Shown here piece by piece: positions 5,186 through 31,437 of a DNA stretch of 64,000 nt. Every line of letters begins with the position of its first letter. Position 1 is the stretch's first letter. Below the pieces are notes generated by a model, which was not told where the DNA came from, made no database searches, and was given only the letters and a program-made list of their open reading frames with translations. A program made the translations under genes and the position numbers. This DNA comes from Candidatus Zixiibacteriota bacterium (GTDB taxonomy: Bacteria > Zixibacteria > MSB-5A5 > GN15 > PGXB01), in NCBI GenBank assembly GCA_016933955.1, contig JAFGTT010000024.1:1-64000 (forward strand). Reading direction: 5' to 3'.

Positions 5186-6654
5186 CAGTCTTTCAATTTA
5201 TAATACAGCTCTATATATCGACGCGCACTATTATCCCATGAAAAATCCCGACTCATTCCTTGTTTGACGATTTTGTGCCAGATCCTCCGCCGGCTATACA
5301 ACTGAACGGCTTTTCTAATGGCCGCCAGAAGTTCCATGGAATCGTATTTTTCAAAAACGAAACCGGTTCCGGTAAGGTTTCTTTCATCGAAATCGATTAC
5401 GGTATCGGCCAGACCGCCGGTTTTTCTGACAACCGGTACCGTCCCGTATTTCAGGCTGTACATTTGGTTCAGTCCGCAGGGTTCATACCTCGACGGCATC
5501 AAAAAAATATCGCATCCGGCCTCGATCAAATGAGCCAGACGGTTATCAAAGGTTAAGAAAGCCTTGAATCGGTCGGGATATTTTTTTTCAATACTGTTGA
5601 AGAAGTCATGATAATTTTCATCACCCGTACCCAGCAGGACAAATTGAAGATCAAGGCTCATAATGTCATCCATGATATCTTCAAGCAGGTCGAATCCCTT
5701 TTGAATATCAAGTCTGGAGATTACTCCAATTAAGGGCTGTTCGATTCGAAGAGGAAAATTGCACAGGTGCAGGAGCTCCAGCTTATTCTTTTTCTTGCCG
5801 GACAGGTTATCGATAAAGTAATGATGCGGTATTTGGGAGTCACGTTTCGGGGACCAGATAGTGTAATCGACGCCATTGATAATACCCACAATATCCCGGG
5901 ATCTCTCTTTCAGGACCCCCTGAAGACCCTTACCGAATTCATCGCTGTTCTGGATTTCTTCGGCATAAGTCGGCGAAACGGTTGTAATCCTGTCGGAATA
6001 GACTATGGCGGCCTTCATGAAATTGACATCGCCCCAGAATTCAAACGGTCCGGTTGCGGCAAACAGGGCAGGATCAAGATTCGTTTTTTCAAAGGCTGCC
6101 GCCGGAAATTTCCCCTGGTATCCCATATTATGTATCGTAAAGATGGATTTTACGCCCTGATAAAAGTTATCCAGGGAATATTCGGTTTTAAGGAAAGCCG
6201 GAACCAAGGCACTTTGCCAGTCATTGGCGTGTAAAATATCGGGGCGCCAATCCAATAATTTTAGCGTTCTGAGAACCGCCCGGCTGAAGAAAATAAATCG
6301 CTCGTCGTTATCCCTATAGTCGTTATCCGTGGCCGGATCGCGATATAATTCCTCGCGATCGAAAAAATAATCATTATCGATAAAATAATACTCCGGGTTA
6401 CCCTCGGTGTCCGGCAGAACAAACACTCTGCCCCTAAAATTATTCCGACCGACCGGAATATCCAATTCAATATTCAATCTTTTCAAACCCGGATACTGCC
6501 GTGTGATCTGACGATATTTCGGCATGAAGAGTTTAACGGAATGCCCTTGTTTAGTTACCGCCCGTGGTAAGGCACCTGAAACATCGGCCAGCCCGCCCGT
6601 TTTGGCAAACGGAACCGCTTCCGGCGTGATAAAGGCTATTTTCAAACCACCCAT
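5185..6654 (-). CDS. glgA: glycogen synthase (GT5)
   Basis: This 489-residue protein has the family length and the N-terminal ADP-glucose-binding motif KTGGLADVSGALP (KxGGL). The C-terminal half has ISRLDIQKGFDLL and the nucleotide-sugar site region MPSRYEPCGLNQMYS followed by KTGGLADTV. GlgA transfers glucose from ADP-glucose (or UDP-glucose in some lineages) to the non-reducing end of an alpha-1,4-glucan in the cytoplasm. It lies five bases after galT and is coupled to the downstream GT-C gene, so the three form one operon. No glgB or glgC is in the window. Confidence 0.95.
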   Translation of the reverse strand: MGGLKIAFITPEAVPFAKTGGLADVSGALPRAVTKQGHSVKLFMPKYRQITRQYPGLKRLNIELDIPVGRNNFRGRVFVLPDTEGNPEYYFIDNDYFFDREELYRDPATDNDYRDNDERFIFFSRAVLRTLKLLDWRPDILHANDWQSALVPAFLKTEYSLDNFYQGVKSIFTIHNMGYQGKFPAAAFEKTNLDPALFAATGPFEFWGDVNFMKAAIVYSDRITTVSPTYAEEIQNSDEFGKGLQGVLKERSRDIVGIINGVDYTIWSPKRDSQIPHHYFIDNLSGKKKNKLELLHLCNFPLRIEQPLIGVISRLDIQKGFDLLEDIMDDIMSLDLQFVLLGTGDENYHDFFNSIEKKYPDRFKAFLTFDNRLAHLIEAGCDIFLMPSRYEPCGLNQMYSLKYGTVPVVRKTGGLADTVIDFDERNLTGTGFVFEKYDSMELLAAIRKAVQLYSRRRIWHKIVKQGMSRDFSWDNSARRYIELYYKLKD

Positions 6655-15534: not shown

Positions 15535-17262
15535 ATGATGAAGAATCTTATGGCTATCCTGACCAGACAAATAATCAGGAAACTGGCGATTTATATATTG
15601 ACCGGTCTCCTGTCGACCGCTTGGGCAATGCCCCCTAATCCCGTGACACTTGAACAACACCTGAGGGCAGGCAAGGCTCTGCCATATTATCTCGATCAGC
15701 GGCCGATGTTACTCAGCCGGGGTATCGGAGCGGCTTCGAAAAAGTTAATCCCGACGTCCAAAGCATCGATTTCAGGGCAGTTTCGCGCCCTGGCCATCTT
15801 AATCCAGTTTTCCGATAAAACCGCCTCGGTGGCGGCGGAGAATTTCGATACCCTCTTGTTTGTCGATAAAGCCAATACTGTCCGGAATTATTATTACACC
15901 GTATCATATGGTCAACTCGATATTGTCACAGTAAATCTTCCTTCGTCTCTGAATTGGATTTCGGCACCACAGACCTATGCTTATTATTGCAATAGTCAAA
16001 ATGGAACCGGCGCCTATCCCCAGAATACCCAGAAATTATGCGAGGATATGGTTACCCTGGTCGATCCCTGGGTGGATTTTTCACAATACGACAATGATGA
16101 TGATGGAGAAGTCGATGCCCTGATATTAATCCATACCGGTCCGGGTGCGGAATATACTCACCAGAACAGCGATATCTGGTCTCACAAATGGAGTACCATG
16201 ATGTCTGTATATAAAGATGGCGTGAGAATCAGGGATTACGATATTCAGCCCGAATACTGGCTTGTACCGGGGGATATGACATGCGGTGTATATTGCCATG
16301 AACTCGGCCACATTTTTGGCTTACCCGATCTTTATGATACCGATTATTCTTCGCGTGGAATAGGCCGTTGGTCAGTTATGAGTTACGGCAGTTGGAATGG
16401 GCCGAGTGGACTGGGGGCCTGTCCGGCGGAACTGGATGCCTGGTCACGAATCGAACTCGGATTTAAGGAACATATTAATGTCATATCCAATACCAGTAAT
16501 GTTCTTATTGATAATGTCGAAGACGGTGGAAATATTTATCGCCTCTGGAATAACGGGACAATCGGCAATGAGTACTACCTGGTGGAAAACCGGCAGAAGG
16601 TTGGTTACGATACATATTTGCCGGGTGCGGGGTTGCTTATCTGGCATATTGATGAGAATCTGTTGGGTTCCATGGCTCCTAACGATAATGAATGGTACCC
16701 GGGGCATACCTCCGGCGGACATTTCGGGGTTGCCCTGGAGCAGGGGGATGGCCTTTTCCAGCTGGAAAAACTTCTATCCTCAGGTGATTGGGGCGATCCC
16801 TTTCCTGGAAATTCGGGCAATACTGCCTTTACCGCTTTTTCGTCGCCAAGTTCGAATTCCTATGCCGATGTTATGACGTCTGTATCGGTCAGTGATATAT
16901 CAGACGCATCGTTGACCATGACAGCCGATTTCCAGATATCGTACACCAGTGATGTTAATAATCCGGAATCCAATCTGATGCCGAATTGTCTGATTCTGGA
17001 TCAAAATTATCCAAATCCCTTTAATCCTTCAACTCGAATTCGTTTTGAATTACCTGCGCCCAGCCGCCTGACTTTATCTGTTTATAATATATTGGGGAGG
17101 AAAGTCGTTGAATTGGCCGGGGGTAATTACCCTGCCGGATCGACGGAAATTATCTGGGAAGGATTTGATGCCTCCGGGCAACCGGTATCCTCAGGTATAT
17201 ACTTCTACGAAATCGTTACCGATTACACACGGCAGGTCAGGAAAATGATTCTGGTAAAATAA
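15535..17262 (+). CDS. secreted M6-family metalloprotease with a type IX-like C-terminal sorting domain
   Basis: This 575-residue protein has a signal peptide to about Ala31, then an M6 catalytic domain. The zinc site is H255-E256-x-x-H259 within CHELGHIFGLPDLYD, with the third ligand Asp/His region just after and the Met-turn GRWSVMSYG. A calcium-like DNDDDGEVD lies near residue 187. From about residue 482 a C-terminal module reads LDQNYPNPFNPSTRIRFELP and ends SSGIYFYEIVTDYTRQVRKM. This is the Por/type A (FlgD-like Ig) sorting domain used for type IX or related surface export. The start is one of two adjacent ATGs behind CCGGAG. It is last in the 12156-17262 operon. It probably degrades extracellular protein; substrates are unknown. 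Confidence 0.92.
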   Translation: MMKNLMAILTRQIIRKLAIYILTGLLSTAWAMPPNPVTLEQHLRAGKALPYYLDQRPMLLSRGIGAASKKLIPTSKASISGQFRALAILIQFSDKTASVAAENFDTLLFVDKANTVRNYYYTVSYGQLDIVTVNLPSSLNWISAPQTYAYYCNSQNGTGAYPQNTQKLCEDMVTLVDPWVDFSQYDNDDDGEVDALILIHTGPGAEYTHQNSDIWSHKWSTMMSVYKDGVRIRDYDIQPEYWLVPGDMTCGVYCHELGHIFGLPDLYDTDYSSRGIGRWSVMSYGSWNGPSGLGACPAELDAWSRIELGFKEHINVISNTSNVLIDNVEDGGNIYRLWNNGTIGNEYYLVENRQKVGYDTYLPGAGLLIWHIDENLLGSMAPNDNEWYPGHTSGGHFGVALEQGDGLFQLEKLLSSGDWGDPFPGNSGNTAFTAFSSPSSNSYADVMTSVSVSDISDASLTMTADFQISYTSDVNNPESNLMPNCLILDQNYPNPFNPSTRIRFELPAPSRLTLSVYNILGRKVVELAGGNYPAGSTEIIWEGFDASGQPVSSGIYFYEIVTDYTRQVRKMILVK

Positions 17263-17879: not shown

Positions 17880-19586
17880 TCAATCGCGATATCCGCACGG
17901 TTCCGGTCCGCTTTTATATAGATAGGATACAAGATAAGATACATCCAGAATATTAATCTGCCCGTTGCAATTGGTATCACCCATATAATAAGCGTATTTG
18001 GGAGGGAGACCGTTTTTATACAGGTAATTCATAAGATAAGTGACATCAAGTATATTAACCGCCCCGGAACCATCAACATCTCCAAATGGGTGTATCTCCG
18101 TATCGAATACGTATGGGTTATCATCCTGCCACTGAGAAACAACACAGGGTATAAAAACCATGGAGTCGTATCGGGCAAAATCATAAATGGCGCAATCCGT
18201 TTTCCCTACAGATGAGACAGCACACCCCGTTGTCAGGTCGGCGATATCATCGTCAAAAGTAATATATGAAAAACCCCATTTGACGGAATTACTGCCGTCA
18301 AACCTGAGCATTAACAGCCCGTTTCCGGAAGGATTATTCACCGTCAGGATATAATTGCTGGCCAGGCCATCAGGGGGCCGATAGGCTGTCAATCCGGTAA
18401 ACTCACAAGTTAACACAACCTGGTCAATCAGTATATGAGGATAATCGGCCCCATCATCGTAATAGGCTGTATCAGCTCGATCTTGAGTGAAATAGTTCCA
18501 TGCTGTGAATTCCGGGAAAATCGCCTGAACTGTTTTCCCAAATGGGTAGAGGGCAGAATCAAGTGACGGCAGGACATCATACCAGCGCAAATATTCCCAA
18601 ACATTCCGGATAATGCCTATTCCGAATTTCTCGACCAGATAGGTTGGCCAGATAAAGGTGCTGTAATCATGATAGGTCCACGAAAAATAGTTGGTGTCTA
18701 TCAAAGATGTATCGGGGTAATTAAAGAAATACGGCAAATAGCAGTAATGATCGTTGACCTCATCATAGGTTTTATTTTCAAAAAAGACAGCAGTCCCCTC
18801 GGTCCACCAGAGATCCGGTGATGGTTTATAGGCATAAGCCATCTGCGTCGCATGAAAGTACTCATGAGCACAGGTAACTTTCAAAGCCCCGACAACAGGC
18901 CCTTCGGGATCATCATTGGGCGGAGCAAAGGCCATAGTGTTATGAATTTCGATATGCGAACTCCAGTCACCCCATGAAGAATCACCGGCGCTTTCCCTGA
19001 CGGTGCCGCCGTAATAATTGCCAATCCTGAAAACGAAAAAATCATAAAGAGAATCACCGTCATCGGGAGGGGGAAGAAAACCGAGGTCGATTTGATAAAA
19101 CCTGTAGGCGCTGTCAGCATACTGACCTATTCGTTCGATATAATCGGGGATGCTGTCGGCATCCAGATCCTCGAGAGGAACGGAGTTAAGTCCTGAAGTA
19201 TCATAATGAATGGCGAATTTACCGTCCAGAGAAATAAAGGTTAATTGCAGGGTCGGCCGCGCCAGGTATGAGCTTAATACGGCCTGTTGATCCGGATTGA
19301 GAAGGTCCCAATTATCAATGGCTTCATTGATAAGGGGTGTGCCGCTTTTCATCGGGCTGACCACTTGCGATTTATAGCGGTCGGGCAAAGCCTCAGGAGC
19401 GTACATTGTCTGCAAATTGTAATAAATCCTGTCGGCCCGCGTTATTAACCCGCGACTATAATCCTCGGATATAAGTTCAGCCGCGCCGTCGGCCTTATAA
19501 TTGGGGCCCGCCCCGGCCATCAATACTCCCACCGGCAAAAAAACCAGAATTAGGAATAAAACCAAACCCATGTGAAGATAATTCAT
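17880..19586 (-). CDS. secreted MXAN_6640-like putative metalloprotease with a C-terminal dockerin pair
   Basis: This 568-residue protein begins with a signal peptide (MGLVLFLILVFLPVGVLMAG). A zinc-protease-like site VTCAHEYFHATQ is followed about 18 residues later by WWTEGTAVFFEN, giving HExxH plus a downstream Glu as in the MXAN_6640 family. A calcium-type DLDADSIPDYIE lies near residue 145. The last 65 residues hold two dockerin-like repeats, GDVDGSGAVNILDVTYLMNY and GDTNCNGQINILDVSYLVSY. Such tails are frequent on secreted proteins of Zixibacteria-like genomes, where no cellulosome is known. ATG at 19586 is chosen over the upstream GTG because GAGG precedes it by about ten bases. It is followed by no clear terminator. 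Confidence 0.82.
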   Translation of the reverse strand: MNYLHMGLVLFLILVFLPVGVLMAGAGPNYKADGAAELISEDYSRGLITRADRIYYNLQTMYAPEALPDRYKSQVVSPMKSGTPLINEAIDNWDLLNPDQQAVLSSYLARPTLQLTFISLDGKFAIHYDTSGLNSVPLEDLDADSIPDYIERIGQYADSAYRFYQIDLGFLPPPDDGDSLYDFFVFRIGNYYGGTVRESAGDSSWGDWSSHIEIHNTMAFAPPNDDPEGPVVGALKVTCAHEYFHATQMAYAYKPSPDLWWTEGTAVFFENKTYDEVNDHYCYLPYFFNYPDTSLIDTNYFSWTYHDYSTFIWPTYLVEKFGIGIIRNVWEYLRWYDVLPSLDSALYPFGKTVQAIFPEFTAWNYFTQDRADTAYYDDGADYPHILIDQVVLTCEFTGLTAYRPPDGLASNYILTVNNPSGNGLLMLRFDGSNSVKWGFSYITFDDDIADLTTGCAVSSVGKTDCAIYDFARYDSMVFIPCVVSQWQDDNPYVFDTEIHPFGDVDGSGAVNILDVTYLMNYLYKNGLPPKYAYYMGDTNCNGQINILDVSYLVSYLYKSGPEPCGYRD

Positions 19587-19718
19587 ATAATCCACAGCCT
19601 CAATAACTTAGGGCAAGTAAAGTGCGGCGGCGCAGAGATCTTCTTCCCCCAGTACAATTTAACTTTAAACCCATTTTTGTCAAGTATATTAAATTATACG
19701 TCACTCTCAGCCAGGCGT

Positions 19719-21332
19719 TTACATCATATATTGGCCGACTCCAAAAGAAACCTGCCAGCTTTTCGTCCGACCGGCATAGGCGAAATCAACCCGGACGACC
19801 TTTGAACCGGAAAACTTGGCAACACCGAGTCGCAATCCGGCCCCGACTGACCAGAGCATATTATGGACCTGAAATTCATCCCCGGATGACCAGCTCTGGC
19901 CCATATCAAAGAATTGAACCACGCCCAGATGAGTGGTAAAAACTTCCAGCCCGGAAAAGAATCGGTTTTCCAGAGTAAACACGAATCTTCGATCACCATC
20001 CTGAAAATTTTTATTATAGCCTCTAACACCGTTGTTTTCGCCCAGATAAAGCGCCCTTGAGTCATCCTGACGCCAATCCCTGGTATAACTTCCCCGCATC
20101 ATTATGGTCAGCCATGGTAACCTGTTGTTATAATATAATATCGAATAATGTTGTCGTTTTCTGAAGTCAACCGGGCCATCCAGCCACCAATCCCAGTCAA
20201 ATGTCATAAAAAAGTAATTACAGCCGGGTTTGGCAGAATACCTGTTAGAGATGTTGATATGATTTAGGAGTTTATGTCCGCTTCCGGCGTCAATTACCCA
20301 GCCATATCCCACCGAGGCCGAGGTGATCAGGGCAATATCTTCGATATTATCAATCTCGTTAATTCGCTTTGTCTTTACATAATGGTAGTTGCCGATTACC
20401 GCACTCGGCTCGATTTTCCAAAAGACACTATCACTCGGAAATGCGAAATTCAGATTTTCCTCGTAAAGCCGGCGATTGGAAATTCTGGTATCCTGATATG
20501 AAATTTCCATCCCGGCGGTCACCTTTTGGGAATAATTGCCAAACCGATAATTGGCATGGGCTGTTATCTCACTGCCGGAGACATCGTCCTGTCCGATAAT
20601 TTTGCCTCCGGAATAAAAATCATCCCTTCGATTTATATCCGCCAGATACAATTGATATTGGAATCTGGAATTCAGAGAATAAAACGGTTTCCCAAAAAAC
20701 AGCGCTTTCAGGCCAACCGCGGGGCTTTCGTCGTAGAACAACTCCAGGTAGTGCCGCGTTCCAAACAATCTTCTTTCGGAAAAAGTCAGATGCGCATAAT
20801 CTTCATCAAAATCCCGAAAGAAATAATTCATATCGATATACTGCCCGGTACCCAGAAGGTTGGTTTCCTTGAGAGCCAGTTGATAGGTTACTTCCCCCGA
20901 GTTGCGATGGACTGAAAATCCGCCCGTCAACGTCCAGACATCGGTGGTGACTACTCGCATAATATTGCGCCCGCTCGGATCAATCCCGAATTCGACTGAG
21001 GCTGTGGATATAAATCGCAGGGCCCGGAGATTCCGCTCGGTTTCATCGGCCAATTCCCTTGAGAATGGCTCGCCCGGCTTTTGAAGGACTTCCCGGCTGA
21101 CGACATAACTCCGTGTATAAATATGTAATTTATTGGCCCATCGATAAATCCAGGTGTCATAACGCGGTAAATCGGTGTCAAAAATATTGTTATTTTCGAT
21201 TATAATCGTATCAATCAACGGGCCAAATTCCTTGGATTCGGGCATAGTAAGACGGGATGTTGCGGCTTTTACCTGGATCACCATCAGGATAGCCATTATA
21301 AAACATATAAGATTCAGGTCGTTATTTTTCAT
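19719..21332 (-). CDS. Omp85/BamA-like outer-membrane protein with one POTRA-like domain
   Basis: This 537-residue protein has a signal peptide (ICFIMAILMVIQVKA). A single POTRA-like stretch at about residues 37-135 follows (IDTIIIENNNIFDTD, then LRALRFISTASVEFG). The rest is a beta-barrel containing LGENNGVRGYNKNFQDGDRR, the conserved VRGY motif of Omp85 lid loops. It ends in SFGVGQYMM. It is shorter than BamA, which has five POTRA domains, so it is more likely an accessory insertase, TamA-like or patatin-like-associated barrel than the main BAM. It lies upstream of the dockerin protease in the same orientation, with about 130 bases between them. Partner proteins are unknown. Confidence 0.78.
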   Translation of the reverse strand: MKNNDLNLICFIMAILMVIQVKAATSRLTMPESKEFGPLIDTIIIENNNIFDTDLPRYDTWIYRWANKLHIYTRSYVVSREVLQKPGEPFSRELADETERNLRALRFISTASVEFGIDPSGRNIMRVVTTDVWTLTGGFSVHRNSGEVTYQLALKETNLLGTGQYIDMNYFFRDFDEDYAHLTFSERRLFGTRHYLELFYDESPAVGLKALFFGKPFYSLNSRFQYQLYLADINRRDDFYSGGKIIGQDDVSGSEITAHANYRFGNYSQKVTAGMEISYQDTRISNRRLYEENLNFAFPSDSVFWKIEPSAVIGNYHYVKTKRINEIDNIEDIALITSASVGYGWVIDAGSGHKLLNHINISNRYSAKPGCNYFFMTFDWDWWLDGPVDFRKRQHYSILYYNNRLPWLTIMMRGSYTRDWRQDDSRALYLGENNGVRGYNKNFQDGDRRFVFTLENRFFSGLEVFTTHLGVVQFFDMGQSWSSGDEFQVHNMLWSVGAGLRLGVAKFSGSKVVRVDFAYAGRTKSWQVSFGVGQYMM

Positions 21333-21487: not shown

Positions 21488-23218
21488 ATGGCCAGAAAAA
21501 AAATCGGTGATATCCTGATCGAAAAAGAGCTGATAACCCGGGCTCAGCTTGAACAGGCACTCAAAGAACAATCCACAACCGGCAGGAAAATCGGCCAGAT
21601 TCTGGTCGAATCGGGATATATTACCGAGGACCAACTGGTGGAAACTATCTCGGAACGATTAAAAATACCCAAGCTGTCAATCGACAGTATCGTTATTGAT
21701 CCCATGGTAATCAATCTTGTCCCGGTGGAAGTCGCCCGTCGTTACGGTTTGATTCCCATATTTAAAATCGCCGATGGTCTGACAGTGGCCATGTCTGACC
21801 CGTTGAATATTATTGCCATTGAGGAATTGAAATATATTACCAGGTGCGATATCAAGCGGGTCGTGGCTCTTCGCTCGGAAATCGATGCGGCTATTGACCA
21901 GTATTACTCGGTGGCTGATTCCATGCACGGGGTCATCGGCATCTATCATGAAGCGGTCGAGGAAGAACCGGTTGAGAATATAGCCGAGGGAATGGCCGTG
22001 GCCGGCGATGATGCCCCGGTCGTCCAACTGGTTAATTTGTTGATCAACCAGGCAGTAAAGGATAAAGCCTCGGATATACATATCGAACCGGATGAGAACC
22101 AGCTCAGGGTCCGTTTTAGGGTCAACGGCGTCATGAAAGAAGAAGCCTCGCCGCCAAAAAATCTGCAATCCGAGATAATCTCCCGGATTAAGGTGGCCGC
22201 CAATCTTGATGTCTCTGAAAAAAGACTGCCCCAGGATGGCAGGTTGTTTCTGCGCGTGGACGGGGCCGATATCGATCTGCGGGTATCCACCCTGCCGACC
22301 ATTCACGGGGAAAAAGTGGTCATTCGTATACTTGACCGCCGGATTCTTAATTTCGGGCTTGATGCTCTCGGTTTCACGCCCGATTTACTGGCCAACTGGC
22401 AGGAACTGATAAAGAAAAAAGAAGGCCTGATTCTTATCACGGGTCCCACTTCAAGCGGAAAAACGACCACCCTTTATTCCGTTTTACGGGAAGTCAATTC
22501 TATCGAAAAGAATATAATTACCGTCGAGGACCCGGTGGAATATTCGTTGCAGATGATTAACCAGGTTCAAACCAATGAAAAAGCCGGCCTGACATTCGCT
22601 CACAGCCTGCGGTCAATTCTTCGACAGAATCCGGATATAATCATGATCGGAGAAATCCGCGATACCGAAACGGCTATTATGGCGATGCGGTCGGCTCTGA
22701 CAGGACATCTGGTCTTTTCCACCATGCATACCAATGACGCTCCCGGCAGTATCGCCCGACTGGTCGATATGGGAATTGAAAAATATCTAGTGGCCTCGGC
22801 TTTGAAAGGGATTCTCGCGCAGCGTTTATTGCGGACCAATTGCCCCCATTGCAAAGAAGAATATCAACCTCAGGAATATCAACTGCATTTGGCCGGTCTG
22901 ACCGGATTAAGGGAAAGCGCCAAATTCTATCGCGGAACAGGATGCAGCCGTTGTCGAATGACCGGATTTAAGGGCTTAACCGGCATTTTCGAACTGGTTG
23001 TGGTGGATGATATCGTGTCCGAAATGATTGCTACCGGCGCTTCGGACGGTCAAATTCGGCAACAAGCCCTTAGCCGCGGTTACCGACCATTATTCGAGGC
23101 CGGTATTGCCAAGGTCAAGTCAGGTGAGGTCTGCCTTGAGGAACTACTTCGAGTAATCAGCATCAGCAAACATACCGACCAAGAAATTCTGCCGGAAGGT
23201 GTCCCGGTCAATGTCTAA
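21488..23218 (+). CDS. gspE: type II secretion/type IV pilus assembly ATPase (GspE/PilB type)
   Basis: This is a 576-residue ATPase. An N-terminal MshEN domain (KIGDILIEKELITRAQLEQA, then GQILVESGYITEDQLVETIS) precedes the catalytic domain. That domain has Walker A GPTSSGKTTTLYS near residue 320, the Asp-box EDPVEYS, Walker B IIMIGEIRDTETA and the His-box GHLVFSTMHTND. A four-cysteine zinc module (CPHCKEEY and CSRCRMTG) follows near residues 455-495. It powers pseudopilus assembly at the inner membrane. It heads a nine-gene plus-strand operon. No retraction ATPase PilT is seen, which fits secretion or a non-retracting pilus. Confidence 0.93.
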   Translation: MARKKIGDILIEKELITRAQLEQALKEQSTTGRKIGQILVESGYITEDQLVETISERLKIPKLSIDSIVIDPMVINLVPVEVARRYGLIPIFKIADGLTVAMSDPLNIIAIEELKYITRCDIKRVVALRSEIDAAIDQYYSVADSMHGVIGIYHEAVEEEPVENIAEGMAVAGDDAPVVQLVNLLINQAVKDKASDIHIEPDENQLRVRFRVNGVMKEEASPPKNLQSEIISRIKVAANLDVSEKRLPQDGRLFLRVDGADIDLRVSTLPTIHGEKVVIRILDRRILNFGLDALGFTPDLLANWQELIKKKEGLILITGPTSSGKTTTLYSVLREVNSIEKNIITVEDPVEYSLQMINQVQTNEKAGLTFAHSLRSILRQNPDIIMIGEIRDTETAIMAMRSALTGHLVFSTMHTNDAPGSIARLVDMGIEKYLVASALKGILAQRLLRTNCPHCKEEYQPQEYQLHLAGLTGLRESAKFYRGTGCSRCRMTGFKGLTGIFELVVVDDIVSEMIATGASDGQIRQQALSRGYRPLFEAGIAKVKSGEVCLEELLRVISISKHTDQEILPEGVPVNV

Positions 23219-24425
23219 AACATTTACATATACAGCCCGGACCCATGATGGACAGCGGCAGACAGGTTCGGTGCAGGCCGATGACAGCAAACATGTGGCG
23301 GCCATACTTGCCAGGAAACAGCTGATTCCGACCCGTATTAAACTGAAAAGAAATACCGAAAAAGCCGGGTTGTTCGGTTTTATGAAAAGCCACCGGTATG
23401 AAGACCTGATTTTATTTACGCGAAACCTGGGGACGCTTTATCGAGCCGGTATACCCATTTTGCAGGCTCTTGCTATTATAAAAATCGGGGATGAAAAAAG
23501 TTATTTCAACAAGGCGCTGGCCAAAATACGCAGTAATATTAATTCCGGACGCTCGCTGGCCGATTCCATGGCCGAATTCCCGGATATCTTCCCCAAAATC
23601 TACATCGCTTCCATCGCCGCTGGTGAGCAATCGGGAACTCTGGAACAGATTATGGAATCACTGGGGAATATGCTGGAAAAAGATCTGGCCTTAAACCGGC
23701 AAATTAAATCTTCAATTCGCTATCCCATATTTATCGTTGCCGCAATTACCGGAGCCTTCGTGGTTCTGATCAGTTTTGTAATCCCGAGGTTTATTAATTT
23801 TTATTCCAAGATGGGGGCGGAATTACCGCTTCCGACCAGAATGCTGATCTGGATAAATCAGACTATTTCCCATTACTGGATACCGGCCATGGCCATGGCC
23901 GTCATATTGTTTTTCCTTTTCAGAAAAATTCGGTCGACGCCCGGTGGCAAACACTTCCTTGACATGAAAATTCTGACTCTGCCGATATTCGGAGACCTTA
24001 TTGTCAAGGGAAATGTCGCCCGTTTTTCCTATATCTTTCAGGTCCTTCTGAAAAGCGGTATGCCGGTTGTTCGAACCCTCGATATGTTATCGGGGGTGGT
24101 TAAAAACAGCCAATTGACCATGGAGATAAAATCAATGGCCGATTCCTTCCGCGAGGGACGGGAGTTGAGCAGTCTGGGAAACAAACTGACTTTCTTCCCC
24201 GAAATGGCTATCCACATGATCCGGGTGGGACTGGAAAGCGGTTCTCTTGAAAGTATGCTGGAAGAAGTATCCAATCATTATAGCAAGGAAGTGGATTACA
24301 AATCCCGTCATCTGACAGCCGTTCTGGAGCCGATTCTGACCATTGTCCTGGGCGGTTTCGTGCTAATTGTCGCCCTGGCTATCTTCTTGCCAATGTGGAA
24401 CTTAATCCAGGTATTCAAGGGATAG
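23211..24425 (+). CDS. gspF: type II secretion/type IV pilus inner-membrane platform protein (GspF/PilC)
   Basis: This 404-residue protein has two T2SSF domains, around residues 60-185 (FTRNLGTLYRAGIPILQALA) and 265-390 (FSYIFQVLLKSGMPVVRTLD). The three expected membrane segments include PIFIVAAITGAFVVLISFV and LTIVLGGFVLIVALAIFLPM. It connects the ATPase to pseudopilin polymerisation. The ATG at 23211 overlaps the gspE stop by eight bases. The alternative GTG at 23199 is less likely because GGAAGG lies correctly only for the ATG. Confidence 0.92.
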   Translation: MSKTFTYTARTHDGQRQTGSVQADDSKHVAAILARKQLIPTRIKLKRNTEKAGLFGFMKSHRYEDLILFTRNLGTLYRAGIPILQALAIIKIGDEKSYFNKALAKIRSNINSGRSLADSMAEFPDIFPKIYIASIAAGEQSGTLEQIMESLGNMLEKDLALNRQIKSSIRYPIFIVAAITGAFVVLISFVIPRFINFYSKMGAELPLPTRMLIWINQTISHYWIPAMAMAVILFFLFRKIRSTPGGKHFLDMKILTLPIFGDLIVKGNVARFSYIFQVLLKSGMPVVRTLDMLSGVVKNSQLTMEIKSMADSFREGRELSSLGNKLTFFPEMAIHMIRVGLESGSLESMLEEVSNHYSKEVDYKSRHLTAVLEPILTIVLGGFVLIVALAIFLPMWNLIQVFKG

Positions 24426-24505
24426 GGGAAATTAAGACAATGCCTGTTTTTACCGATAATGACAATGAACGAAACAATTCAATTAAATCAATTAAAGGAG
24501 TTGAA

Positions 24506-24943
24506 ATGCGGCTGAAAAAACTATCCAACCGGGGTGGATTCACGCTTATTGAACTGGTTATCATAATCGTGGTCCTCGGCATTCTTGCCGCGGTGGCGAT
24601 TCCCAAGTATTCGAATATATCGTCCGAGGCCAAAGAAGCGGCCGCCAGAGGCGCTCTAGGGGCACTGAGGTCCGGCATTTCGATCTGGTACGCCAATAAA
24701 GCGGTCGAAACCGGGACACCATCATGGCCAACCCTTGACACCCTGACAATGGAGGACATGGTCATGGAACAGGGTATTCCGGCTAATCCTTATCAATACG
24801 ACGCGAATGCGGCGGACAGCATAATCGATGGCAGTGCTCTGGCCAAGGGAACCGTCAGCGGGACACGCGGCGGCTGGGCTTATAATCCCAATACCGGGGA
24901 AATATGGCTCAACAGCAATATCGCGGGAGAAAATAACTGGTAA
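24506..24943 (+). CDS. type IV pilin-like/GspG-type pseudopilin 1
   Basis: This 145-residue prepilin has the class III leader RLKKLSNRGG followed by FTLIELVIIIVVLGILAAVA. Cleavage is expected at G|F, with the invariant Glu5. The C-terminal half has WYANKAVETGTPSWPTLDTL and ends GGWAYNPNTGEIWLNSN, as in major pilins of this architecture. AAAGGAG five bases before the ATG at 24506 fixes the start. Processing is expected from the prepilin peptidase encoded at 55209-55994. It is the best candidate for the major subunit. Confidence 0.88.
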   Translation: MRLKKLSNRGGFTLIELVIIIVVLGILAAVAIPKYSNISSEAKEAAARGALGALRSGISIWYANKAVETGTPSWPTLDTLTMEDMVMEQGIPANPYQYDANAADSIIDGSALAKGTVSGTRGGWAYNPNTGEIWLNSNIAGENNW

Positions 24944-24944
24944 A

Positions 24945-25388
24945 ATGAAACTGCCGCATCAACACGGTTTTACACTGATTGAATTGGTGATAATTATTGT
25001 CGTCCTCGGAATCATTGCCGCGGTGGCGATTCCAAAATTCGGCAGTATGACACAGAATTCGAAAATAAGCGCCACCAAGGACGAGATGCTGAGAATAAAG
25101 ACGGCCATAATCGGAGATGCCCGGGTGATATCCGGAGGCCAATATATCGACCGGGGTTTTGAAGGAGATGTGGGTTTTCCTCCTTCACGACTGGTGGATC
25201 TGGTCATCAGGCCCGACAGTATTCCGGTTTATGACCGGATTACCAGGCTGGGCTGGAATGGGCCGTACCTTGACAGTTCACTGCAGAATTACGCGACTGA
25301 CAGCTGGGGTAGCGCTTATGTGTATGATCCCAACAACAGGACCGTAACCTCCACGGGCGTGACGCCCAACATTGTAACAACGTTCTGA
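24945..25388 (+). CDS. GspG-like pseudopilin 2
   Basis: This is a 147-residue prepilin with a short leader (MKLPHQHG) and FTLIELVIIIVVLGIIAAVAI, nearly identical in its first 20 mature residues to pseudopilin 1. The body reads GDARVISGGQYIDRGFEGDV, then WNGPYLDSS and TDSWGSAYVYDPN, resembling the GspG DxWG(x)xY calcium-loop region. It begins one base after the stop of pseudopilin 1. It is paralogous to the N-terminal half of the third pseudopilin. Confidence 0.87.
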   Translation: MKLPHQHGFTLIELVIIIVVLGIIAAVAIPKFGSMTQNSKISATKDEMLRIKTAIIGDARVISGGQYIDRGFEGDVGFPPSRLVDLVIRPDSIPVYDRITRLGWNGPYLDSSLQNYATDSWGSAYVYDPNNRTVTSTGVTPNIVTTF

Positions 25389-25391
25389 AGT

Positions 25392-26537
25392 ATGGAAAAA
25401 AGGCTGAAATCACAACAGGGTTTGACCCTGATTGAGTTGGTGATGGTCATAATCATCATCGGAATTCTAGCCGGGGTGGCAATGAAATCAATGGATTCGG
25501 TAATTGAAACCGGCCGGGTCGAATCAACCAAAACCGAACTGAATGCCCTGGCCAAAGCCATAGCCGGGGACCCGGATCTGATAAACAACGGCACCCGGGC
25601 CGATTTTGGATATGTCGGCGATGTCGGTTCCTTGCCGCCTGATCTTGATGCCCTGATTTCAACGCCGGGCGGTTTTGCCACCTGGAACGGACCGTATATC
25701 AGCAGCAATTTTACGCAAACACCGGATGATTTTAAAAAGGATGCCTGGGGTGTTCTGTACATATACGGAGGCGGTACCAGCATTACATCGACCGGATCGG
25801 GTTCCACTATCACGCGTCAATTCGCCTCGGCGGTATCGGATTTGACCAGTAATACCATCCAGGGATCGGTTATGGATGCTGAAGGGATACCGCCGGGAAT
25901 TTACAGCACCGGCGTAAATATCGTACTTGAATATCCTGACGGTGCTGGAGCCATGACTTCGACCGCGGTCAATCCCTCCCCCAATGGCAATTACAGTATT
26001 TCCGGCCTTCCAATCGGCCATCACATTATGACCACTGTTAATACCACCACCGGCGATACGGTGGTATCTTATGTCACGGTATTACCAAAATCAAGTGTCG
26101 TTAATAATATCCGTTTCGGATCGGCCCTCTGGGGGGCAGGAAACTCATCCAGCGGAAGCGGCCTGCAATATGTGACCGGTTCGGCTGTCCTCAATGGCAC
26201 TTATGGCCAAAATATATATTTTCAGATTTATAACAATACCGGCGCCAATGTTTCCATATCATGGATCAAGGTAACCTACGACCATGTCCCGGCGGCTTAT
26301 TTCGAGCGAGTTCGCTGGGGTAGTAACACTGTGGCCAATCGGACCAATCCGAGGTATGGTTCGGGAGATCAGGTCGATTTCAGCAGTACCATGGGAATCA
26401 ACAACGGTTCATCACAGACGATCCGGCTGGAGCGGTTTCGTGATGCCCAAACAGGAAGTGCCGGTTATGAATACATGAACGGAACTAATGTGACAATTAT
26501 GTTCAGCGACAATAGCGAAATAACCTTCAGCATATAA
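25392..26537 (+). CDS. multidomain pseudopilin 3 with extra beta-sandwich domains
   Basis: This 381-residue protein starts as a prepilin (KSQQG, then LTLIELVMVIIIIGILAGVA; cleavage before Leu rather than Phe). It continues with a GspG-like globular part to about residue 135 (GYVGDVGSLPPDLDALI, WNGPYISS, KKDAWGVLYIYGGG). Residues about 155-242 look like a carboxypeptidase-regulatory/Ig-like fold (IQGSVMDAEGIPPGIYSTG, then NYSISGLPIGHHIMTTV). Residues 243-381 form a further beta-rich domain (YFQIYNNTGANVSISWIKVT to ITFSI). Minor pseudopilins with such large C-terminal additions usually sit at a fibre tip. It may present the fibre to a substrate. It starts four bases after pseudopilin 2. Confidence 0.83.
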   Translation: MEKRLKSQQGLTLIELVMVIIIIGILAGVAMKSMDSVIETGRVESTKTELNALAKAIAGDPDLINNGTRADFGYVGDVGSLPPDLDALISTPGGFATWNGPYISSNFTQTPDDFKKDAWGVLYIYGGGTSITSTGSGSTITRQFASAVSDLTSNTIQGSVMDAEGIPPGIYSTGVNIVLEYPDGAGAMTSTAVNPSPNGNYSISGLPIGHHIMTTVNTTTGDTVVSYVTVLPKSSVVNNIRFGSALWGAGNSSSGSGLQYVTGSAVLNGTYGQNIYFQIYNNTGANVSISWIKVTYDHVPAAYFERVRWGSNTVANRTNPRYGSGDQVDFSSTMGINNGSSQTIRLERFRDAQTGSAGYEYMNGTNVTIMFSDNSEITFSI

Positions 26538-26545
26538 ACCAGAAA

Positions 26546-28150
26546 ATGACGACAGTAGACATTCAGAATAAAACCGGAATGGCCATCCAGTCATCGGGGA
26601 ATAAAACAGGGTCAATCAATATCCGAACCGATTGGAAAAAGCAAATTAGATTCGGCCGGACAATCACTATTTTTCTCGACAACAACGCTCTTCAACTGGC
26701 AACTGCGAAGCATTATGGATATCGATCGTGCATACTCGATGTCAATAAAATTTATATTCCCCAAACCCCGGTATCGGAAGATGACCGCAGGAGATTTCTT
26801 GGCGAAGAAATAAACAGGTACATAAAAACACATAAGGGAATCCTGACCAATTATGTTTTGGGAGTGGGCGGATCGGAATCGGCCTTTCGCCTGATAACTC
26901 TGCCCCGGATGAAGCAAAAAGAACTTAATGAGGCTTTGTTCTGGGAGGGCAGCAAGCGAATTCCATTCGGGCTCGAAAACGCTTATTACGGATTCAACAT
27001 AATCGAACGCAGGAAAACCGATCTCGGCGAGGATTTTTCCTGCGCCCTGATAGCGGTTCTCAAGGAAGAAATCGATCAGAAACTGGACATTATCGAACCT
27101 TTGGATTTGAACCCAAACGCCGCTTATCACGAGTTAGAGGCAATCGGCCATATGCTTCCGCACACGGCCGACTTCGATCCCGGCCGTACCTATGCCCTTA
27201 TAAATATTAAGAAACAAAAATCCGTGATTTCCTTCTATCGCGGCAGATATCTGGAGTTCATGCATATTTGCTCGGTCGGTTCGGACACTCTTTCCGGCGG
27301 TCCGGCAACTCCGACAACGTATGAATATTTCACCGAATCTCTGGTTACTGAAATTCAAAATTCGCTTGATTATTATGTCGGCCAATTTTCCAACACCTCG
27401 GCCGACAAGGTTTACATTTATGGTGACTTATCCTACTCAACAGAATTAATCGAGAATCTTTCCGATCGATTCGGAATTGAATTTCGACGTTTTCCGCTTG
27501 AGGGTTGGTCCGGAATTCACCCTGTTCTGGCGGATCGATATGAGCAAATCCCGGTTTCGCTCAGTGCCGTAGCCATGAGCCTGGCGGAATACAATTTGAT
27601 CGATTTCCTTCCACCGGCGATCAGGGAACAGAAAGTCAATCGGAAATTCGCGGCTTTGATGATACCTGTTTTTATCGTCATTACGGCTTTCCTGATGGCA
27701 ATCTGGTCGGGCCTGAAACTGCAGACTGATATCGAAAATTACAAATTGCGGGCGCAGAATGAACAGGTCGAGACTTTCCGTAATTCGGCGGTTTATAACA
27801 TGTACAACCAGATCAAACTCCAGATGTCGGCCGATAACGATTTGCTGAAAAAACTGAAATCCGAACCAACCATCCTCCATCTGAATATGAAAGAACTCTC
27901 ACGGCTTTTGCCACAGGGTATAAAGTTAAATTTGTACGATCTTCAGGATGGCGATAGCAGGAAGACCCTGGTCATATCCGGCCAGACGCTTTCTGCAGAT
28001 CCGCCGCCGGAAGTCGTTCTGGCGGAATTCATAGCCCGCCTGGAAAGTTCTCCCTTCTATAACAACATCACTCTCCAGCGTCACAGCAAACAACCCCGGG
28101 GCGACCGGTTCGCCATTGATTTCCAGATTGAAATGGATGCCGTGTTATGA
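26546..28150 (+). CDS. PilM-PilN fusion, pilus/secretion alignment subcomplex
   Basis: This is a 534-residue protein. Residues about 35-355 have the PilM/GspL actin-like pattern (TITIFLDNNALQLATAKHYG, then LPRMKQKELNEALFWEGSKR and DKVYIYGDLSYSTELIE). One membrane helix follows at about 368-388 (FAALMIPVFIVITAFLMAIW). A periplasmic PilN-like part then has a coiled coil and a ferredoxin-like end (LLPQGIKLNLYDLQDGDSRK, then EFIARLESSPFYNNITLQ). In most type IV pili PilM and PilN are separate; GspL of type II secretion has both parts in one chain. The fusion thus bridges the two systems. It overlaps the next gene by four bases. Confidence 0.83.
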   Translation: MTTVDIQNKTGMAIQSSGNKTGSINIRTDWKKQIRFGRTITIFLDNNALQLATAKHYGYRSCILDVNKIYIPQTPVSEDDRRRFLGEEINRYIKTHKGILTNYVLGVGGSESAFRLITLPRMKQKELNEALFWEGSKRIPFGLENAYYGFNIIERRKTDLGEDFSCALIAVLKEEIDQKLDIIEPLDLNPNAAYHELEAIGHMLPHTADFDPGRTYALINIKKQKSVISFYRGRYLEFMHICSVGSDTLSGGPATPTTYEYFTESLVTEIQNSLDYYVGQFSNTSADKVYIYGDLSYSTELIENLSDRFGIEFRRFPLEGWSGIHPVLADRYEQIPVSLSAVAMSLAEYNLIDFLPPAIREQKVNRKFAALMIPVFIVITAFLMAIWSGLKLQTDIENYKLRAQNEQVETFRNSAVYNMYNQIKLQMSADNDLLKKLKSEPTILHLNMKELSRLLPQGIKLNLYDLQDGDSRKTLVISGQTLSADPPPEVVLAEFIARLESSPFYNNITLQRHSKQPRGDRFAIDFQIEMDAVL

Positions 28151-28707
28151 AAACAAGATATATCATCAGTCTGATTATTCTGCTGGCTGTTCTGGCCGCC
28201 TGGTTTTTCTTTCTGGTTTCTCCGGAAATAAAAAAACAAAAGGAATTGAAGGCATCGCTGGCATCATCGGAATTAATATTGAATGATTATCGGAATATCA
28301 TGGATAGATTTCCCCAATATTTTAAGGCCCAGCAAACCCTTTCGGAAAGACGTAAAAACCTTCTGTCCAAGTTATATACCCGGGAAGATCTCCTCAAGCT
28401 ATTCGATCGTATAACCCGGGAGTCGGAAAGACACAACCTGAATCTGGTGGAAATATCACCATCCGTTGAAGAATTGCTGGAACTGAATCGAACCATGCCG
28501 ACCAATGACCAGCCGCATTTATTGAATATAATAATCCGGCAACGGGGAAAATTTAAAGACATCGGGCAGTATATAAAATTCATTGAGGCCCAGGATTTCT
28601 ATCGCGGCACTAATCATTGCCGTGTCAGTAATCCGACCGATGGCAGGTCTTTTGCCGATGTTACTTATGGTTTCAAGGCCATCCTGGGAACAATAAAGGA
28701 TAATTGA
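28147..28707 (+). CDS. PilO/GspM-like protein
   Basis: This 186-residue protein has a short cytoplasmic start, one membrane helix (YIISLIILLAVLAAWFFFLV), a coiled coil (KKQKELKASLASSELILNDY) and a ferredoxin-like domain ending in DFYRGTNHCRVSN. This is the layout of PilO, which pairs with PilN in the periplasm. It overlaps both neighbours (ATGA at 28147; TGATG at 28705-28709), showing tight translational coupling. Confidence 0.78.
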   Translation: MKTRYIISLIILLAVLAAWFFFLVSPEIKKQKELKASLASSELILNDYRNIMDRFPQYFKAQQTLSERRKNLLSKLYTREDLLKLFDRITRESERHNLNLVEISPSVEELLELNRTMPTNDQPHLLNIIIRQRGKFKDIGQYIKFIEAQDFYRGTNHCRVSNPTDGRSFADVTYGFKAILGTIKDN

Positions 28708-29153
28708 TGAATGCAGATAAAAGAAAAAAAATAATATATGCCGTTTTTGTCGTAGCGGTGGCCTGGGGTATATACAATTTCACCGGGAAGAACAGCCGGG
28801 ATTTAAAACAGGAACCGGTTTCACCACCGGTACGAGCTGAGATAGCCAGATCGACTCCCCCGGCACGGGCAATTGATATTGAAAAATATGAATCCCTGCC
28901 CTGGGGGCAGGATCCTTTTCTGCAACCCGGAGATGTTGATCGACCGGATGAGGTTGCCGCTGAATCACCGCGATGGGTGCTGGGCGGAATCCTGTACAGC
29001 CGGGACAATCCTTCCGCAGTGATAAATAATCGCATCGTCCGCACGGGTGATTCCGTCAATGGGGCCATAATAGTCGATATCATGGAAAAATCCGTTGCTC
29101 TTGATAAAGATGGATTGCAATTCAAATTGACACTGTCAAAGGGAATATCATGA
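28707..29153 (+). CDS. PilP/GspC-like protein
   Basis: This is a 148-residue protein with one N-terminal membrane helix (IIYAVFVVAVAWGIYNF) and a proline-rich linker. A small beta domain follows (WVLGGILYSRDNPSAVINNR, IVRTGDSVNGAIIVDIMEKS, VALDKDGLQFKLTL), as in the HR domain of GspC or the PilP beta-sandwich. It should link the inner-membrane subcomplex to the secretin. PFLQPGD is close to the PF(x)P motif common in PilP. Start ATG 28707 overlaps the previous stop; AAAGGA lies upstream. Confidence 0.78.
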   Translation: MNADKRKKIIYAVFVVAVAWGIYNFTGKNSRDLKQEPVSPPVRAEIARSTPPARAIDIEKYESLPWGQDPFLQPGDVDRPDEVAAESPRWVLGGILYSRDNPSAVINNRIVRTGDSVNGAIIVDIMEKSVALDKDGLQFKLTLSKGIS

Positions 29154-30430
29154 AATACGCGCTTTTTTCTGTTACAATAGTTTACTGGCTGGCCATGGCA
29201 TTGGCCGTGGCGGGGCCGCTTGATTCCAAAGAAAAAATCTCTCTTCAATTTGAGGATGTTCCCATTACCACCGTCCTCAATATGATTGCCCAGCAATATA
29301 ATCTTAATCTGGTTCAATCCGGTGAAATCAATGAAAACATCAGCGTCAAATTAGAAAATGTAAATCTCGAAGATGCTCTCAATGCTATTCTTGCATCCAA
29401 CGGTTACAATTTCTATTTCAGCGGCGACATTATTGTTATCAAGCCCGTTACCATGGACGCCGTCGGTGAAACCGAGATCAAGATTATTGAACTTAAATAT
29501 ATTTCACCGGCATCGGCGGTCAAAGCCGCCGAAGATCTCCTGTCGCCCAAGGGAAAGATCAGGATAATTGAGGGCGGTACCCAGACCACGACGTCAATAG
29601 GGTCCCCCATCCCCACCAAGCTGGCCGTTGTCGATCTGGCCGGAGTGACGGAGCGAGTCGCGGCCTTTATCGCTCAACTGGATCGGCCGGAACCATTGAT
29701 TGCCATTGAGGTCAGGATGGTCGAGATCAATATGGATCAGAGCGACCAGGTCGGTTTCAAATGGCCCACCAGTCTCAAGGGCCGGGCTCACGGGGTTTAT
29801 CTGGAGAGCGAATCATCGGATGGAAGCAGTTCTTCCTCGGAAGCTGTGGGCCAGATAGCCCTGCCGGATGGTAAATGGGAATGGGGAAAACTATCGGTCG
29901 GCGAACTCAGCCTGGTATTGGATTTTTTACAGAATAGCGGGCACTCCAAATTGATATCCGATCCCCGTATAACCACCATTAACAATCATCAGGCCGAGAT
30001 CAAAGCTACCACGGTGGTTCCGATTCAGACAATCAATCGCTTCAGTGAGGGCGGTTCTGTCCAAGATATCGTTACCTTCCAGGATGAAGAAATCGGCATC
30101 ACTCTTTTGGTGACTCCTCATATAGCCGATGACAATGAGATAATTCTTGATGTCCAGCCCACCGTGGCTGAAATAATCGGTTATTCCGGTTCAGCTGATA
30201 ATCAGAAACCGATTACGTCGGAACGTTCGGTTCGAACCAAAATCGCCGTCAGGGATGGCGAAACGGCCGTCCTGGGCGGCTTGTTGAAAGAAAATAAAAT
30301 CGAAACAGAACAAAAGCTGTTTTTCCTGGGATCTTTGCCGATTCTCGGCAACCTTTTCAAACATCGGCTGGTGGAGACATCGACCACCGATCTGATGATA
30401 ATGATTACTCCCAAAATATCCGGGAACTAA
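29150..30430 (+). CDS. secretin (PilQ/GspD family), short form
   Basis: This 426-residue protein has a signal peptide (VTIVYWLAMALAVAG) and an STN/N0-like domain (ISLQFEDVPITTVLNMIAQQ to IIVIKP). One N1-like domain (IIELKYISPASAVKAAEDLL) and the secretin core follow. The core has DFLQNSGHSKLISDPRITT, the VPIQTI strand, VTFQDEEIGITLLVTPHI, SERSVRTKIAVRDGETAVLGG and LPILGNLFKHR. It should form the outer-membrane gate of this system. At 426 residues it is smaller than typical PilQ or GspD because there are few N-domains. The stop codon overlaps, tail to tail, the stop of the convergent minus-strand gene. Confidence 0.92.
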   Translation: MKYALFSVTIVYWLAMALAVAGPLDSKEKISLQFEDVPITTVLNMIAQQYNLNLVQSGEINENISVKLENVNLEDALNAILASNGYNFYFSGDIIVIKPVTMDAVGETEIKIIELKYISPASAVKAAEDLLSPKGKIRIIEGGTQTTTSIGSPIPTKLAVVDLAGVTERVAAFIAQLDRPEPLIAIEVRMVEINMDQSDQVGFKWPTSLKGRAHGVYLESESSDGSSSSSEAVGQIALPDGKWEWGKLSVGELSLVLDFLQNSGHSKLISDPRITTINNHQAEIKATTVVPIQTINRFSEGGSVQDIVTFQDEEIGITLLVTPHIADDNEIILDVQPTVAEIIGYSGSADNQKPITSERSVRTKIAVRDGETAVLGGLLKENKIETEQKLFFLGSLPILGNLFKHRLVETSTTDLMIMITPKISGN

Positions 30431-30885
30431 CGGCGAGCACGAGCCAGCATAAAACGCCTGGAACGATTGAAGAAAACATAAAGAGTCAGGATCAGCAATC
30501 CCAGATCGCGAAGGAGCAGGGACAGGGCACTGCTTTTGGCCTTGGAGCTGACCGAAAAACAGCCGCACTCGAGATCGACCCCGCGGACGAGATTGATGCT
30601 GATGGCTACGATAAAAACGATTACGAGAAGATTGAGAATCAGAAGACTCCCCTCCTTGAACACTCCCAAAACCAGAAAGAGACCACAGAGTAATTCCACC
30701 CATGGTAGAATCAGGGCCGTCAGGTTTATCAACGACCCGGGGACCAGGTGATAATTGTACATAATCCGGGCAAAATCCCCCGGAGACCATATTTTATCCA
30801 GCGAAGCATAAATGAAAATAAGCCCGATAGCCAGCCGAACCAGCAACCCAAGATAGTCATTATTCAATATTTTATCACCGTTCAT
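30427..30885 (-). CDS. MauE/DoxX-family membrane protein
   Basis: This is a 152-residue protein with four membrane helices (LLVRLAIGLIFIYASLDKI, then LILPWVELLCGLFLVLGVF, LLILNLLVIVFIVAISINLV and LLLRDLGLLILTLYVFF). A conserved LECGCF sits at a membrane boundary, the pattern of MauE/DoxX-type redox-associated proteins that handle periplasmic thiols. It overlaps the upstream rhodanese gene by four bases (ATGA). A joint role in periplasmic thiol or sulfur chemistry is plausible but not shown. Confidence 0.8.
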   Translation of the reverse strand: MNGDKILNNDYLGLLVRLAIGLIFIYASLDKIWSPGDFARIMYNYHLVPGSLINLTALILPWVELLCGLFLVLGVFKEGSLLILNLLVIVFIVAISINLVRGVDLECGCFSVSSKAKSSALSLLLRDLGLLILTLYVFFNRSRRFMLARARR

Positions 30886-31388
30886 TTCCCGTCCCCGCTT
30901 TCAATCGGCAAATTGGCTCGCTCCCACTCACGCCAGCCGCCGTAAAAAACAAAAATATTGCTGTAGCCATCATACTTCATATCGCGCCCCAGAAAGAGAG
31001 ACAGTTCACATTCCGAGCCGGAGCAGTAAATTACTACGACCCTGTTTTTGGGAATTTCATCAAGACGCCCGCAATAGTCATCAATATAATCGTAGGGGAT
31101 ATTTATCGATCCCCTGATTCTTCCCACCGCAAAATCCTCCGGATCACGAGCATCAACAAAGACTACTCCAGGCAACTGAAATTTGGCCGCAGCCTCATCA
31201 AGAGATATAAAAGGTGGATCATTTTCGTCAGCCGACGGTGGCAAGACCACCTCACTGGAACCGTCAACCGACGGCCAGTTGCCCTGAAAAGAAATTTTGT
31301 GGGGAGATACGGTATTAACCAGGATGGCTATAATGATGGCCAGAATCAATATTACAAGAGCCTGTTTTATGCCAATTTTCATCATCAT
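30882..31388 (-). CDS. membrane-anchored rhodanese-domain protein
   Basis: This 168-residue protein has an N-terminal membrane anchor (ALVILILAIIIAILVNTV) and a rhodanese domain facing the periplasm. The domain has FISLDEAAAKFQLPGVVFVD, ARDPEDFAVGRIRGSINIPY and the active loop VIYCSGSECELS, so catalytic Cys is present. It ends VFYGGWREWERANLPI. Such domains transfer sulfane sulfur or sense it. The open frame begins at a TTG at 31400; three consecutive ATGs (31388, 31385, 31382) are likelier starts. It has its own promoter and is co-transcribed with the MauE-like gene. Confidence 0.85.
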   Translation of the reverse strand: MMMKIGIKQALVILILAIIIAILVNTVSPHKISFQGNWPSVDGSSEVVLPPSADENDPPFISLDEAAAKFQLPGVVFVDARDPEDFAVGRIRGSINIPYDYIDDYCGRLDEIPKNRVVVIYCSGSECELSLFLGRDMKYDGYSNIFVFYGGWREWERANLPIESGDGK

Positions 31389-31437
31389 TATTACAACCAA
31401 TCATATCCATAGGTTCAGACAAAGTATACAGGCGGCA

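Follow-up and report, generated by a model that had tools for sequence, protein, structure and literature searches.

A gene at positions 25392-26537 (+ strand) of the window, as we call the whole stretch of 64,000 nucleotides of Candidatus Zixiibacteriota DNA analysed here, encodes a modular prepilin of 381 amino acids. By analogy with known tip pilins this protein, X3, is probably a minor (pseudo)pilin that displays two added beta domains, D2 and D3, at the tip of a filament. X3 belongs to a family that is encoded either within one operon for a pilus- or secretion-like machine or in a detached array of paralogous genes, and in the arrays the last domain has been exchanged at a fixed position.

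The X3 gene is a conserved open reading frame with an ATG start codon that lies immediately 3' of the stop codon of the second pseudopilin gene, G2. Full-length orthologues with 54-64% identity are present in ten other genomes of the window's family. The protein begins with the class III prepilin signal MEKRLKSQQG/LTLIE, in which the leader peptide (25392-25421) is predicted to be cleaved between Gly10 and Leu11 and Glu15 becomes position 5 of the mature pilin; both G10 and E15 are invariant across 31 aligned relatives. This region matched N_methyl (PF07963) above the cut-off (26.0 against 21.2 bits) and T2SSG below it. Moreover, Gly at -1, Glu at +5 and a hydrophobic helix place X3 in the type 4 pilin superfamily. 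The mature pilin module (residues 11-146; 25422-25829) consists of a long N-terminal helix reaching to residue 58 and a small head. As stated in the original prediction, this N-terminal part repeats the second pseudopilin (24945-25388), with 38% identity over X3 residues 4-144 (E 5e-21). In contrast, the model of the major pseudopilin GspG (TIGR01710, NCBIfam) reached 30.6 bits against a cut-off of 88.85, and the match spans the N-terminal 50 positions only. A scan for promoters and terminators gave nothing usable.

The two extra beta domains that had been proposed for the remainder of the protein were recovered in a structural model. AlphaFold2, run with the alignment of 31 sequences, yielded a mean pLDDT of 86.5 and a pTM of 0.58, with a helix at residues 13-58, the small head, a beta domain at 154-237 and a second one at 258-380 (a fold from the single sequence was poor, with a pLDDT of 43, and was not used). 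In the model, the added residues 154-380 follow the pilin module and are beta almost throughout. The first domain, D2 (residues 152-245; 25845-26126), was assigned as a CarboxypepD_reg/CNA_B-like beta domain. Its match to CarboxypepD_reg over residues 155-240 remains below the cut-off (17 bits against 32.3, E 0.0076) and recurs in several X3 homologues. The fold backs the carboxypeptidase-regulatory-like assignment, since Foldseek against the PDB aligned D2 with 4v4c_B over 92 columns at 2.7 Å rmsd (probability 1.00) and also returned DUF3823 proteins and CNA_B-type domains of Gram-positive pilins. A Gly/Ser-rich linker (residues 246-256; 26127-26159) follows, which has the lowest conservation in X3 and coincides with a dip in pLDDT. 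The moderate pTM is consistent with domains that shift relative to each other about this linker. Behind it lies D3 (residues 257-381; 26160-26534), the domain that is swapped in array paralogues; its residues 271-380 were modelled as all-beta with pLDDT values mostly of 90-98. Foldseek with full-length X3 gave top matches with query TM scores mostly of 0.15-0.21 and rmsd values above 12 Å. Because of these poor superpositions we counted the D2 match alone as evidence and took nothing firm from them for D3. The addition of a C-terminal domain that is not pilus-specific to a pilin module corresponds to the definition of a modular type 4 pilin (PMC8179133). For the X3 family this assignment is based on CarboxypepD_reg, below cut-off and backed by the fold, and on Laminin_G_3, above cut-off in paralogues.

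The original prediction also described the C-terminal beta-rich domain as being of unknown fold. No Pfam or NCBIfam family matched D3 at or above its cut-off. The nearest match is archaellin (PF01917), found in 7 of 19 D3 sequences with a best E of 3.7e-5 and 24.6 bits against a gathering cut-off of 29.5; these alignments run C-terminus to C-terminus. The window's own D3 gave no such match, and archaellin was absent from the PDB profile search with the D3 profile. An archaellin-type head was therefore not assigned, as the gathering cut-off was not reached, and we regard a kinship of D3 with archaellin as a lead only. CBM_3 matched more weakly still, in 3 of the 19 sequences. None of the searches of PDB sequences, whether with X3, with D3 or with its profile, revealed a convincing relative of D3: matches to polyubiquitin and MSH6 were judged to be chance, those to CBM3 were weak, and a PHROGs match in one member (best E 0.003) was discarded. 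Across 40 genomes D3 was found essentially only on X3-type proteins.

Leucine after the cleavage site had been considered atypical, which did not hold up. Among 141 relatives, position +1 is F in 92, Y in 29, I in 9, M in 6, L in 2 and H, V or W in one each, and with this spread the G-Leu site of X3 carries little meaning. GspK is, like X3, a large minor pilin and is proposed to sit at the tip of the T2SS, but it lacks Glu5 and its extra domain is alpha and interrupts the sheet of the pilin, whereas X3 has Glu5 and appended all-beta domains. As Glu5 is present, X3 is not forced into the outermost position, unlike GspK. No GspK family matched X3 in Pfam or NCBIfam at E<=1. We thus rejected the identification of X3 as GspK, the finding that would have undone the tip-subunit idea. 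Two family members lack the usual Glu at +5, namely those at 4989-5747 (-) of L128 (GFSLVTI) and at 4310-5524 (-) of L142 (GFTMIDV), a feature that they share with GspK and with PilA of Streptococcus sanguinis.

In the operon E-F-G1-G2-X3-LN-O-P-D (21488-30430, all genes on the + strand), X3 is flanked by G2 and by a gene for a fusion of PilM and PilN (LN). Pfam and NCBIfam identified an assembly ATPase of the PilB/GspE type with an MshEN N-domain (21488-23218), a GspF/PilC platform protein (23199-24425) and the pseudopilin G1 (24506-24943); G2 is by sequence similarity a paralogue of the X3 pilin module. Downstream of X3 are LN, GspL-like by family match (26546-28150), a PilO/GspM-like protein assigned from weak matches and its conserved position (28147-28707), a PilP/GspC/T2SSB-like periplasmic protein with a CdsD_C match (28704-29153) and a short secretin of 426 amino acids with STN and Secretin domains, scoring best as PilQ (29150-30430). 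Canonical T2SS models (NCBIfam) were not reached by GspE (582.9 bits, cut-off 630), GspF (334.6, cut-off 424) or GspD (176.7, cut-off 351), nor were the canonical T4aP models by PilB (602, cut-off 676) or PilQ (212, cut-off 284). The operon contains neither GspH, I, J and K pseudopilins nor PilT. As E, F and the secretin score between the T4P and the T2SS models without reaching any cut-off, we filed the machine as neither. The same arrangement recurs within the window's family and class.

Gene order suggests that this E-F-LN machine is the partner of X3; apart from this machine, the genome encodes a standard T4P that has pilins of its own and a PilB-PilT-PilC cluster on contig 10. Besides, contig 1 carries PilM-N-O-like genes and a second secretin, contig 32 two PilA-like pilins and contig 12 a cluster of minor pilins in which PilX_N was matched. 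The gene at 55353-55676 (-) is the sole Peptidase_A24 match in the genome, so both filament systems probably share this one prepilin peptidase. Upstream of the operon lie genes for a Peptidase_M6 protein with a Por_Secre_tail/FlgD_ig end (15535-17262, +), an HExxH protein with a dockerin domain (17880-19595, -) and a probable outer-membrane protein (19719-21332, -). The last of these is a conserved operon neighbour, as are the DoxX/MauE-like and rhodanese-like genes downstream (30427-31400, -; names read from sequence), and these flanking genes are kept even where X3 is gone from the operon. The HExxH/dockerin gene also adjoins the operon in the relatives L037 and L071.

This setting invites a different reading, in which the machine would be a type II secretion-like piston and X3 a periplasmic substrate receptor, with D2-D3 or the swapped domains binding export proteins and pushing them through the secretin. 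TcpB and CofB, which are three-domain minor pilins, can indeed carry secreted proteins (PMC9565799). The lack of a retraction ATPase in the operon, a platform protein that scores higher as GspF than as PilC and the two likely secreted zinc peptidases encoded upstream, the second recurring in two relatives, also point this way. On the other hand, most genomes checked lack the peptidase genes next to the operon, the short secretin scores best as PilQ, and the GspH/I/J/K set is missing from the operon. Moreover, glycans are the usual ligands of the LamG and ConA-like domains that replace D3 in relatives. We consider the piston rather unlikely and continue to favour a recognition domain displayed at a filament tip.

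Profile searches with the X3 family gave matches in 106 of 132 Zixibacteria genomes, and most matching public contigs are titled Zixibacteria or Candidatus Zixiibacteriota. One public contig titled Ignavibacterium sp. (DYGG01000011.1, L033) matches in the same way as a contig of the window's family (genome G002) and is probably mislabelled. X3 belongs to the operon both in the window's clade and among class-level genomes from several families; a single X3 occupies the same operon slot in seven of the eight class-level genomes examined, and the eighth, L113, has two operon copies. Within the same order, L128 has three X3 copies. Most other genomes of the order and, within the family of the window itself, G001, G005 and G006 lack X3 in the operon and carry a standalone array of X3-type genes instead. 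These arrays are unlinked to machine genes and usually comprise four genes, with a range of 2-6 that is partly limited by contig ends; G010 has two X3 copies on a short contig. At L043 and L038 the arrays adjoin a pyridoxal-5-phosphate-synthase-like gene and an Rrf2-like regulator, as read from the sequence starts. Around G2 we compared 30 loci: X3 lies between G2 and LN in 10, none of whose genomes shows an array, and LN directly follows G2 in 20, whose genomes all have array-type matches elsewhere. In the genomes checked, operon X3 and the array are thus mutually exclusive. This exclusion is the main reason to think that the array proteins serve the same machine. Likewise, G2 is single-copy in nearly all genomes, which argues that one machine serves either form.

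In a tree built from the pilin module and D2 of 141 proteins, the four array positions and the operon copies form separate clades, with SH-aLRT support of 99, 100, 77 and 100 for positions 1 to 4 and 98 for the operon clade. That the operon copy is the ancestral state is the simplest reading of this unrooted tree. Position 1 has a GY- start and usually no D3, and at position 4 D3 is missing in 29 of 29 proteins. The last domain at position 2 is of the X3 type in 16 proteins, type C in 11, LamG in 3, type D in one and absent in 2, which corresponds to at least 9 changes between D3 types. Position 3 has the X3 type in 21, LamG in 4 and no last domain in 2, which requires 4 changes or more. Among the proteins of the operon clade, 22 have X3-type D3 and 2 have none, without any exchange. 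Labels for LamG and type C were partly assigned from sequence patterns and from reading the tails, so that a few errors are possible that would leave the picture unchanged. Laminin_G_3 matches in array paralogues are strong (E 4e-19 to 6e-31), and LamG and ConA-like domains are usually glycan binders. DUF2341 precedes LamG at L123 (Pfam) and at the near-identical L135 (by reading). Types C, of 160 residues, and D are unnamed domains; an hhalign comparison showed type C to be unrelated to X3-type D3, and it matched nothing in Pfam or the PDB. Two position-2 members, L069:2388-4355 (656 aa) and L117:4861-6969 (703 aa), contain extra repeats (xxLSFxxEDIxxYD) of beta-propeller-like look in front of the last domain, which in the L069 protein is of type C.

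The reading of D3 as a recognition domain is founded on these replacements, in which LamG/ConA-like or other domains take the place of D3 while the pilin and D2 scaffold stays constant. The original prediction had suggested checking whether the added domains vary between strains like an adhesin. In the window's clade they do not: pairs of the 11 operon orthologues are on average 86% identical in the first helix, 68% in the pilin body, 58% in D2 and 55% in D3, so D3 is conserved and not hypervariable. The adhesin-like variation is domain replacement between paralogous lineages and not rapid drift of X3. The proposal of a tip subunit that binds a substrate or surface is thus supported, albeit not proven, by the swaps in relatives. 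Conservation within the clade and confinement to X3-type proteins, as far as seen, mean that D3 could be structural. X3 and its paralogues might then be priming or structural subunits whose D2-D3 mainly cap or space the filament, with neutral turnover of D3, and array positions 1 and 4 work without D3. We judge this improbable, as the swaps concentrate at one or two positions and bring in recognisable ligand-binding folds, and we retain ligand recognition as the probable function of D3.

Similar architectures have been described for other tip pilins. In S. sanguinis, PilB is a pilin with a vWA module and PilC a pilin with Ig-like and ConA-like lectin modules; both bind host proteins and glycans, PilC being a proven glycan binder, and models place them at the tip (PMC8179133, PMC9934059). 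Like X3 they carry grafted C-terminal modules on an N-terminal pilin module, are encoded with other pilins and are predicted to form a tip complex, and the module order of PilC is that of the LamG-bearing X3 relatives. Furthermore, PF13385 and PF13620 rank with the most frequent domains known to be added to modular pilins (PMC8179133). A sequence relation of X3 to PilC and PilB is undetectable beyond the pilin N-terminus, the D3 of X3 itself is not a known lectin, and the machine is of a Gram-negative type with a secretin. The literature examined describes no arrays of four positions in which the last domain is exchanged. The type IVb pilins CofB and TcpB share the plan of pilin, beta domain and beta-sandwich and form a tip trimer that carries or binds a secreted protein (PMC9565799, PMC8179133); they gave no PDB sequence match to X3 and were not among the top Foldseek matches, nor was there any sign of a partner gene like CofJ or TcpF. 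The HIJK set of four minor pilins in the T2SS recalls the four-gene arrays. In Myxococcus xanthus, one Kil/Tad filament has several alternative minor-pilin tip sets with added domains, but pilins and machine are of the Tad type and the variants are whole heterotrimer sets (PMC12075869), in contrast to the last-domain swaps at a fixed position in X3 arrays. Because of the analogy with PilB/PilC and CofB/TcpB, D3 most likely lies at the filament end with D2 as a spacer. X3 could instead be a decorated co-major pilin throughout the filament body, given its Glu5, a pilin module close to G2 and flexible Gly/Ser linkers; this is highly improbable, as modelling of PilB showed a bulky module to clash within the filament body (PMC8179133) and the small pilins G1 and G2 are already available as body candidates.

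For a tip-displayed X3 we propose the following mechanism. The prepilin peptidase would cleave X3 after Gly10, and the E-F-LN-O-P machine would take up the pilin module into a filament assembled beneath the short secretin. D2 would serve as a beta spacer and D3 as the effector domain at the far end, recognising probably a polysaccharide, a glycoprotein or another surface polymer; an exported protein is a less likely ligand. Within the window's lineage a single X3 with a single conserved D3 would fulfil this role. In most of the order, duplication may have led to separate sets of usually four subunits, apparently a tip complex on the same machine, in which positions 1 and 4 would mostly be bare scaffold and D3 would be exchanged at position 2 or, less often, at position 3.

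Modular pilins as a kind are already known from scattered cases and database surveys. As far as the open-access literature shows, the phylum-spanning family, the mutual exclusion of operon copy and array and the last-domain exchange at a fixed array position are new; no description of Zixibacteria pili was found there. More tentatively, the Zixibacteria may possess a distinct tip of a type 4 filament, in which four paralogous modular pilins replace HIJK and PilY1, one position is a slot for the exchange of ligand domains and the original effector domain is a distant relative of the archaellin head. If so, the swap of a single terminal domain would change the recognition specificity of the filament of a whole phylum. 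Within one family, spread over most sampled genomes of the phylum, a clear series leads from a lone gene in the operon to a separate set that usually has four members. With the effector domain replaced at one fixed position while the scaffold stays constant, this amounts to a natural experiment on how filament tips acquire new specificity. Two questions thereby become testable, namely whether the modules added to pilins determine which ligand is bound and whether sets of this kind stand in for the four-pilin complex usually present at the tip.
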